Shown: positions 29,211 to 37,083 of the stretch, piece after piece
Layout of the letters: every line of letters begins with the position of its first letter
Position numbering within the stretch: position 1 is the first letter of the stretch
Assembly: GCF_000337415.1 (NCBI RefSeq)
Contig: NZ_AOJD01000067.1
Location: 1 to 40,616 of the forward strand
Source of the DNA: Halorubrum tebenquichense DSM 14210
GTDB taxonomy: Archaea > Halobacteriota > Halobacteria > Halobacteriales > Haloferacaceae
DNA: 40,616 nucleotides
Reading direction: 5' to 3'
Program-made: the position numbers and the translations under genes
Notes under the pieces: generated by a model
Databases searched by the model: none
Told to the model about the DNA's origin: nothing
The model's input: the letters and a program-made list of their open reading frames with translations, nothing else

Positions 29211-29266
29211 GTTGCTGTTATCGATACAGGACGGCGACTGTTCTATTGATAAACGGTCCCGCGGTC

Positions 29267-29586
29267 GGCGCGTGCCGACGAGCGCCCGGAGGGCGCGAGT
29301 CGCACGCGCGAGGGAGTCGCGAGCGGACGGGCGACCGAAGGGAGCCCGGAGCGAGCGACGAGGCTGGGGAGGCGTGAGGTGCTGTGCGGAGCGGGGCGGA
29401 GCGGGGCGGGGCGGGACTCGAAGGGGCAGCCGCGAGGGCGACGCACGCCGCAGCAAGCACCGCAGGGAGTAAGCGGAGCGAACGACCGAGGAGCGCAGCA
29501 AGGCGCGCGAGCCCTCGCGGCTGGGGCTTCGGCGGCCGTGTCGCCGGTAACGACTGTGTCGTATCGAGCGGCCGGGGCTTCGGTGG
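29267..29586 (+). repeat. structured interspersed repeat, copy 1 (candidate ncRNA or non-autonomous element)
   Basis: Homologous to 36791-37039. Predicted hairpins on the plus strand: P1, GCGCGTGC 29268-29275 with GCACGCGC 29302-29309, inner GCGCCC/GGGCGC; P2, GTCGC 29316-29320 with GCGAC 29355-29359, inner CGGGC 29328-29332 with GCCCG 29344-29348 and a GAA loop at 29337-29339; P3, 13 perfect pairs of 29427-29439 with 29511-29523. Conserved single-stranded-looking blocks are AGGCTGGGGAGGCGTGAGG and GCGGGACTCGAAGGGGCAG. Facing GA dinucleotides inside P1 and P2 can form sheared G-A pairs on this strand but not on the other. Positions 29513-29586 repeat at 89-162. A weak TATA-like TTGATAAAC lies about 20 bases before the 5' edge. 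It occupies the divergent gap between aIF2-gamma and the DUF5810 gene. Confidence 0.75.
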
Positions 29587-36663: not shown

Positions 36664-36790
36664 ACCGGCGCAAGGCGACGCCCGGATTTGTATCCTCGCC
36701 TCCGCGGACGACGCGGAGGGCCGGATTCGAGGCAGAATCGCGCACACCGACGTGGGAACGAACGACGACACTCGGTCGATTTTCCCAGTT

Positions 36791-37039
36791 GGCGCGTGCC
36801 TGCGAGCGGCCGACAGGCCGCGAGGAGCACGCGCGAGGGAGTCGCTGGCCCCGGAGCGAAGCGGAGGGTGCCAGCGACGAGGCTGGGGAGGCGTGAGGTG
36901 CGGTGCTGTCGCGGGGCGGGACTCGAAGGGGCAGTCGGGAGGCGGGCGCAGGCGACGTAAGCACTGGAAGGAGCGAGCGAAGCGAGCGACTGAAGCGCGC
37001 AGCGAGCGTGCGCCCGCCTCCCGACTGGGGCTTCGGAGG
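36791..37039 (+). repeat. structured interspersed repeat, copy 2 (candidate ncRNA or non-autonomous element)
   Basis: Same order of blocks as copy 1. P1: GCGCGTGC 36792-36799 with GCACGCGC 36827-36834, inner GCGGCC/GGCCGC, loop GACA. P2: GTCGCTGGC 36841-36849 with GCCAGCGAC 36870-36878, CCC/GGG, facing GGA triplets, and a two-pair stem closed by GAA (36858-36860). P3: 19 perfect pairs of 36932-36950 with 37009-37027. Inside P3, 36973-36987 reads GC-GA-GC-GAA-GC-GA-GC, again a GAA loop flanked by facing GA steps. P3 differs at many positions from copy 1 yet stays perfectly paired. It ends with CTGGGGCTTCGGAGG (37025-37039). It sits in the 516-base divergent gap between cofD and the NTP pyrophosphohydrolase-like gene, in the same orientation as copy 1. 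Confidence 0.75.
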
Positions 37040-37083
37040 AGTCCGCATCGGGGGTATCCACGAACAGACGGCCCGGCCAAAAC

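Follow-up and report, generated by a model that had tools for sequence, protein, structure and literature searches.

The two divergent copies of a repeat in a contig of Halorubrum tebenquichense DSM 14210, each with the same three hairpins, raise the question of whether such a repeat is a new RNA family, as proposed in an earlier note on this DNA, a mobile element, or simply a product of GC-rich sequence. The analyzed window was the whole stretch of 40,616 nucleotides of contig NZ_AOJD01000067.1 (assembly GCF_000337415.1), forward strand. The parts of both copies are listed in Table 1.

Table 1. Position of the two repeat copies and their parts in the window; nhmmer E-values refer to a profile of 28 copies that included both copies listed here.
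Feature	Position	Strand	Basis or remark
Copy 1, core of the structured repeat	29264..29539	+	nhmmer, E 9.7e-46
Copy 1, P1 hairpin, GGCGCGTGCC ... GCACGCGCG	29267..29310	+	read from sequence, fold, P1 pairing
Copy 1, P2 hairpin, GTCGC ... GCGAC with G-A steps	29316..29359	+	fold, P2-arm covariation
Copy 1, linker, conserved, G-rich, GAGGCTGGGGAGGCGTGAGG ... GGGCGGGACT	29360..29418	+	alignment
Copy 1, P3 domain	29419..29531	+	sequence, covariation
Copy 1, variable tail	29540..29583	+	ends in partial P3 3'-end repeat (CGAGCGGCCGGGGCTTCGG, 29565-29583)
Copy 2, core of the structured repeat	36788..37044	+	nhmmer, E 7.4e-66
Copy 2, P1 hairpin, inner stem GCGGCC/GGCCGC	36791..36835	+	sequence, fold
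Copy 2, P2 hairpin, GTCGCTGGC/GCCAGCGAC	36841..36878	+	sequence, covariation, fold
Copy 2, P3 domain, CGAAG/CTTCG and 19-bp stem	36924..37035	+	sequence, covariation, fold

Structure of the two window copies

The coordinates of both copies and their hairpins were read directly from the sequence, and the predicted RNA fold of the + strand of copy 2 recovered all three hairpins (z −5.3, better than 200 of 200 dinucleotide shuffles). The P3 stems described in the earlier note are exact complements: positions 29427-29439 (CAGCCGCGAGGGC) and 29511-29523 form 13 pairs in copy 1, and positions 36932-36950 and 37009-37027 form 19 pairs in copy 2. The reported swap in the inner stem of P1 is likewise present, GCGCCC/GGGCGC of copy 1 being replaced by GCGGCC/GGCCGC in copy 2, which turns one C-G pair into G-C. 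Only the limits of the copies (29267-29586 and 36791-37039) had to be redrawn as the shared cores found by nhmmer, the last part of the former copy 1 being its variable tail. In the P3 domain of copy 1, a CGAAG/CTTCG helix is followed by a GGG/GGG loop, the 13-bp stem, and then short helices with internal loops.

The + strand of copy 1 also folded better than 200 of 200 shuffles (z −4.1). The reverse strands gave z −6.3 for copy 2 and z −2.7 for copy 1, where 1 of 200 shuffles was equally good. Since reverse strands of this GC-rich DNA score well too, folding energy alone cannot pick the strand.

Covariation and the selected strand

Good folding of both strands is the point in favor of regarding the hairpins as an artefact of GC-rich, palindrome-prone DNA. 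The pairing within copies refutes this explanation, which we consider scarcely conceivable. In an alignment-free comparison of 67 full-length copies from the same genome, the P3 arms paired at 12.42 of 13 positions within a copy versus 10.67 of 13 between copies; they were fully paired in 42/67 copies versus 9.7% of between-copy combinations, and the P2 arms in 27/67 versus 2.9%. The inner dinucleotides of P1 paired in 45 of 63 copies (4 of the 67 had an unrecognized end and were left out) versus 569 of 3138 combinations of unlike copies. Two of the 67 copies were excluded from the alignments for their length. In the MAFFT alignment of the remaining 65 P3 domains, 98.2% of cells were paired, versus 27–41% when one arm was slid by 1–3 columns and 85.1% after shuffling, and 22 of the 34 pairs had changed on both sides. 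Four of five covariation measures were reached by 0/500 shuffles, and the fifth, further pair types, by 17/500. The P3 domains of other genera (120 distinct sequences, one genome being used for each of 12 genera) had 95.3% of cells paired, with 28 of 34 pairs covarying (36–43% paired when slid, 70.4% when shuffled), in an alignment that was fitted to the covariance model and therefore leans toward its structure. The compensatory change predicted from selection on structure is thus seen well beyond the two window copies, and significant covariation, as in structured RNAs, was found in this genome, in other genera, and between the orthologous copies described below. The fold of the element is under selection.

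Pairs of the G-U type outnumbered A-C mismatches on the + strand, 51 versus 9 in the 65 copies and 99 versus 27 in the 120 sequences of other genera. By column pairs, the numbers were 11 versus 5 and 17 versus 7, and one column pair supplied 23/51 and 34/99 of the G-U pairs, respectively. On these counts, the strand argument is of moderate weight. The internal loops of P3 contain near-invariant G-A steps alternating with covarying 2-bp helices, and these steps would stack on the + strand only. Selection of the + strand, either as RNA or as single-stranded DNA, is therefore supported in part by the G-U excess and the G-A steps; the pairing, G-U, and G-A evidence holds alike for both kinds of molecule.

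A high-copy family in the Halorubrum tebenquichense genome

The profile detected this non-coding element of approximately 260 bp in at least 88 loci of the genome, both window copies included; 67 of the copies were full-length. With copy 2 as the query, 40 of the 194 candidates were scored, and at least 40 places, among them copy 2, matched at E <= 1e-54. A short conserved motif matched 94 times, versus 75 for the same motif read backwards, so that this word is not specific by itself and was used for picking places only; the 28-copy profile found a whole or partial element in 57 of 60 places so picked, as well as in all 30 loci collected earlier.

On the + strand, the Halorubrum copies consist of a left end with a sharp border between TGCGGT and GGCGCG, P1, GCGAGGGA, P2, the conserved G-rich linker (GAGGCTGGGGAGGCGTGAGG ... 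GGGCGGGACTCGAAGGGGC), P3 of about 119 nt, GGGGCTTCGG, and a variable tail of approximately 50–65 nt, which often finishes in a word like ACGTACAGCCGAGCG. The whole element measures about 260–330 bp. Repeats of the P3 3'-end are common after the tail, spaced by approximately 51 or 66–69 nt. Long open reading frames across the element were judged by eye to be chance frames of GC-rich DNA.

Small two-hairpin modules occur at fixed loop positions in P3, both in this genome (L041, L078) and in G054 (L118), as well as in L042, L053, and L060. The module GTGGTTCGA-stem-TCATCA-stem-CGAACGACA is present in Halorubrum and in one genome from another family, while the module TTCACGA..CCAATC.. lies at the same point in three copies of this genome. 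At two loci (L015 and L088), P3 alone is tandemly repeated behind a whole element, with an N at the joint that may mark an assembly join. An N that may likewise be an assembly join led us to drop a nested insertion at L007 as proof of the boundary. Downstream of the element at L020, there is a repeated stretch AGAGGGATTTGAACCGARATCAGACGTGCTC, which resembles tRNA gene pieces. Words of the element were also seen near the ends of contigs C11, C34, C38, C40, C52, C56, C58, and C74, so the repeat probably breaks the assembly.

According to our own simple gene finder, the 67 full-length copies occupied all gene contexts: <E< (21 copies), >E< (20), <E> (13), and >E> (10), where E is the element and the arrowheads give the direction of the adjacent genes, with 3 unassigned. 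Intergenic placement, together with the gene on the 3' side facing the element in 42 of 66 assigned copies (away in 24), could indicate a DNA or RNA hairpin that serves the host as a terminator, an insulator, or a nucleoid-protein site. There is, however, no consistent gene arrangement, since 13 of the 67 copies, including both in the window, lie between divergent genes, and the copy number varies widely within Halorubrum. Such a host function is thus improbable. The occurrence of all orientations also generally rejects a promoter or leader of the neighboring gene.

Of 64 copies (3 of the 67 with an unrecognized end were left out here and from the target-duplication analysis), 18 had a TATA-like box near position −19 relative to the left end, versus a background of 1.4% per 32 nt, which was derived from all sequence, mostly coding, and overstates the contrast. 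These boxes were not tied to a divergent gene on the left, which again disagrees with the promoter reading: the left gene ended at the element in 12 cases, was divergent in 5, and was unassigned in 1. They are of interest for another explanation, namely, that the repeat is a dispersed family of genes for a structured RNA, a candidate + strand transcript that would fold as P1-P2-P3 and function in trans or bound to protein, with mobility only spreading the copies. TATA-like boxes at the left end would suit such genes, as would the near-invariant letters of the internal loops and the G-A steps. Against this, transcription from these boxes would start about 10 nt inside P1. The tail, too, had TATA-like boxes within its first 45 nt in 20/64 copies.

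Distribution among haloarchaea

A covariance model (R1) built from P3, the E-values of which are rough, matched 50 of 52 Halorubrum genomes, the source genome included, with at least 70 matches in 20 of them. In a draw from the class, R1 matched 291 of 391 genomes, which represent 70 of the 86 genera drawn, and in a phylum-wide draw, it matched 57 of 392 genomes, all 57 listed as belonging to the same genus, family, or order; both sets are draws from larger groups. The copy numbers per genome are lower bounds, since at most 70 matches were counted in each Halorubrum genome and at most 9 in each genome of the two draws. In a motif scan of the genome collection, all 80 matches listed, of at least 120, came from haloarchaea. 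The element is rare on plasmids (7 records matched copy 2, and 8 matched the G347 element described below), and a search of phages with copy 2 gave no match. The suggestion of the earlier note that the family may be widespread is thus borne out. The range from 0 to at least 70 matches per genome within Halorubrum speaks against an RNA gene family, as does the presence of tens of copies in one genome, next to genes in all orientations.

None of the 4227 Rfam families matched the window at the gathering threshold, and the surroundings of the two copies gave no match at E <= 5; this agrees with the earlier note, where the repeat was not recognized as a named RNA family, and rejects a known family. 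No title or abstract opening returned by our searches of the open-licence PMC literature described the repeat. An overlap may exist with the 22 conserved, unassigned intergenic RNAs of Halobacteria given in PMC7002113.

The arrangement of P3 in other genera was examined at 90 loci picked from the best matches of 12 genomes. Two P3 domains were present in 31/90 of these loci, in all 31 cases head to head; the window copies are single. Reading of the sequences showed the left domain beside P3 in several other genera as well (L111, L123, L121, L130, L139, L192), and on a Halobaculum plasmid (L179), two whole elements lie head to head with a spacer that measures 27 nt by eye. At four loci of another genome (G389; L190, L191, L195, and L196), short repeats of approximately 28 bp (CGGAAGCGCTCGGTGA...) lie upstream of P3 in place of the left domain.

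Copies at orthologous sites

Comparison of the source genome with other Halorubrum genomes yielded 48 locus pairs in which both flanks matched, one being the window itself (L171) and two being duplicates. The self match was excluded from the comparisons. The two duplicates, which arose where loci came from one and the same genome, were still present in the identity comparison, and the one that entered the P3-arm comparison was removed from the counts given here. Readable P3 arms were absent in 5 of 47 pairs; among the 41 distinct pairs with readable arms, 34 differed. At least 10 of 11 base pairs were kept on both sides in 31 of these 34, and a compensated double change was observed in 27. Compensated changes were found at 16 of 20 sites of the source genome. 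The maintenance of P3 at resident sites favors a family of RNA genes, and so does the fact that the element was more alike than the mean of its flanks at 22 of 27 sites. The clearest case was copy 2: its ortholog in G039 had 94.6% identity in the element, versus 75.2% and 71.9% in the intergenic flanks; the next gene was 86.0% identical, and the 54 bases compared at the end of the other gene were 96.3% identical. Conversion from sister copies is unlikely to account for this similarity because the closest sisters in the genome are only 87% (full-length) and 92% (over 180 bases, cut by a contig end) identical to copy 2.

Copy 1, on the contrary, showed no conservation in excess of its flanks (92.5% in the element, 92.4% and 91.1% in the flanks), which is evidence against the gene explanation. 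Moreover, the median identity of orthologous elements was 79%, close to the 79–87% between full-length paralogs and copy 2, so a given copy does not behave like a single fixed gene. Many copies occupied the same site in two species; movement is thus not frequent, which counts against a mobile element.

The site of copy 1 was followed in 30 Halorubrum genomes in the region before a gene that we take, from its translation, to encode an aIF2-gamma-like protein. The profile matched this region in 18 genomes, including the source genome, all in the same direction. In seven genomes, the region was short and lacked the element, with 219–300 bp between the anchors (about 300 bp in L157). In the other five, it was masked by Ns (one), contained an apparent remnant (one), or was longer without a match (three). 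The left flanks are of three kinds by eye, which suggests more than one insertion at this site. Absence from some species at a single site also fits poorly with a family of RNA genes.

P3 inside IS6-type miniature transposons

Mobile-DNA features were evident in a genome of another genus of the same taxonomic family (G347). Nine of its 12 P3 loci lie inside the inverted ends GGTCGTGTTTAGTTAAG / GGTACTGTTTAGTTAG, with exact 8-bp target duplications in 7 of the 12 and one matching at 7 of 8 bp in another; at L188, the repeat is 9 bp if read one base over. A locus with the same end encodes a frame called as IS6 transposase by NCBIfam (E 1e-49), for which Pfam DDE_Tnp_IS240 was just below the cut-off. 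In addition, L244 (G347:C1:731246-731364) is a 119-bp IS6-type element bounded by these ends and flanked by a perfect 8-bp duplication; it lacks most of P3, which seems to have been cut out between two GGGG runs. All these features would suit a plain IS6-type miniature inverted-repeat element (MITE) with a passive inside, and P3 units within such transposons count against an RNA gene.

The other genomes provide a different picture. In G253, IS6-type ends were present in 5 of 13 P3 loci, with 7-of-8-bp duplications in two; G054 had one weak end pair without duplication; and the remaining nine of the 12 sampled genomes had no IS6-type ends. In the source genome, such ends were found in 0 of 84 loci, and no target duplication was evident in the 64 copies compared, own and swapped flanks sharing words alike; the tests looked for ends of the IS6 type and for words shared by the flanks, over distances of 110 and 220 nt. 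Furthermore, covariation of the inside extends to genera without such ends, which is not expected of a passive inside. As a general account, the passive MITE is most improbable, and it is rejected for the Halorubrum form. In one or two lineages, an IS6-type miniature transposon has captured P3, which is free of it elsewhere. The earlier note had named a MITE with transposase-recognized ends as the finding that would speak against an RNA family: such an element, as a kind and not as a named MITE, exists in G347 and partly in G253, but not in the source genome.

Nature of the repeat

The repeat family is real, widespread, and probably old. The proposal of a candidate new RNA family stands insofar as the repeat is structured, covarying, present in high copy number, widely spread, and unmatched in Rfam; its mobile-DNA behavior does not fit. 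The reading we judge likeliest, with about an even chance of being correct, is that the repeats form a family of non-autonomous, non-coding mobile elements in haloarchaea, for which the + strand fold would be a handle. It is supported by the number of loci, the wide distribution, the diversity of gene contexts, presence and absence at one orthologous site, the conserved and covarying fold with its G-U excess on the + strand, the head-to-head P3 pairs in other genera, and P3 within IS6-type elements. Over evolutionary time, intergenic copies would be gained and lost through a trans-acting transposase, and the fold could serve spread or upkeep, as single-stranded DNA or as an RNA copy. Folding of single-stranded DNA is the mode of IS200/IS605-type and palindrome-associated elements. 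Compensation between orthologs might then come from ongoing selection where each copy resides, or from gene conversion in which active copies overwrite old ones.

The enzyme moving the Halorubrum form was not found among the Y1 and TnpB loci and IS6-type ends examined. The element occurred in 3 of 27 Halorubrum loci with a Y1 (IS200/IS605) transposase, at differing distances and without common ends, and in 1 of 30 TnpB loci (30 of the 101 matches), distances again differing, which gives no support for an IS200/IS605 or TnpB end in the sampled loci. The source genome has one Y1 transposase, and 3 of 15 Halorubrum genomes have none (G009, G019, and G045, with 54, 68, and 60 matches of the element, respectively). 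No recent, cleanly bounded insertion was caught in Halorubrum. The lack of target duplications and IS6-type ends in the copies of the source genome also counts against this reading. To our knowledge, the fold and its loops are more elaborate than the hairpins of transposon ends.

The dispersed RNA gene family comes next in our ranking and may be regarded as possible, if somewhat unlikely. More doubtful is a class-wide selfish or domesticated haloarchaeal RNA, a transcript of approximately 260 nt that would have been captured by at least one IS6-type transposon. The alternation of short helices and G-A steps, the multiplication to tens of copies in a single genome, and the uptake of hairpin modules at fixed loops could be understood in this way. 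If so, the repeat would be an RNA-defined mobile element, and we know of no archaeal counterpart.

The repeat raises the question of why the fold of one strand stays, with same-site compensation across species, in an element that resembles mobile DNA; to find either a handle of single-stranded DNA or an RNA behind it would be instructive. Words like GCGAGCGAAGCGAGC are common in haloarchaeal intergenic DNA, and the repeat may account for part of them. With the covariance model, copies of this kind can be located in the genomes of haloarchaea, and a gene-knockout system has been reported for Halorubrum lacusprofundi (PMC5052560).

Comparison with known systems

Like the RNA families of Rfam, the element has a covarying secondary structure and the usual size of an RNA, and it differs from them in matching none of their covariance models. 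With IS6-type MITEs, the P3 unit of G347 shares the ends and the 8-bp duplications, both of which are missing in the Halorubrum copies. According to a table in PMC6807381, archaeal IS6 elements mostly have GG ends and, where recorded, 8-bp duplications; the same source doubts the placement of archaeal elements in the IS6/IS26 family and names MITEHarch3, one of the IS6-type MITEs of haloarchaea.

REPINs are inverted pairs of hairpins, and the head-to-head P3 pairs in other genera may be set beside them, while the window copies are single. REPs and REPINs with their RAYT transposases (PMC3116915, PMC3733652) are also intergenic, hairpin-forming, and non-autonomous. A REP, however, is 20–40 bp long (PMC3733652), versus about 119 nt per hairpin here, and many copies of our element exist even in genomes without any Y1 transposase.

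The closest known kind appears to be the PATEs of Haloquadratum walsbyi, set beside our element by description only. In PMC3119063, PATEs are described as lacking inverted ends and target duplication, having palindromes near both ends, being too short to code, and reaching a high copy number with a conserved terminal word; they are most variable in the last 20–50 bp past the palindrome, carry smaller repeats inside palindromes, and are tied to IS605-type ends. Our element likewise has no IS6-type ends or target duplication, is too short to code, and is present in high copy number. Its near-terminal palindromes are P1 on the left and P3 on the right, with a variable tail past P3, the terminal word ..ACGTACAGCCGAGCG, and smaller repeats within P3; the modules in the P3 loops are reminiscent of SMR-A, a Haloquadratum repeat directed at the palindromes of PATEs (PMC3119063). 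The differences are the long P3 fold with short helices and G-A steps, the occurrence in many genera, and the failure of kinship with IS605 ends in the sampled Y1 and TnpB loci. Because of the latter, we do not file the element as a PATE, although it would work in a PATE-like manner.
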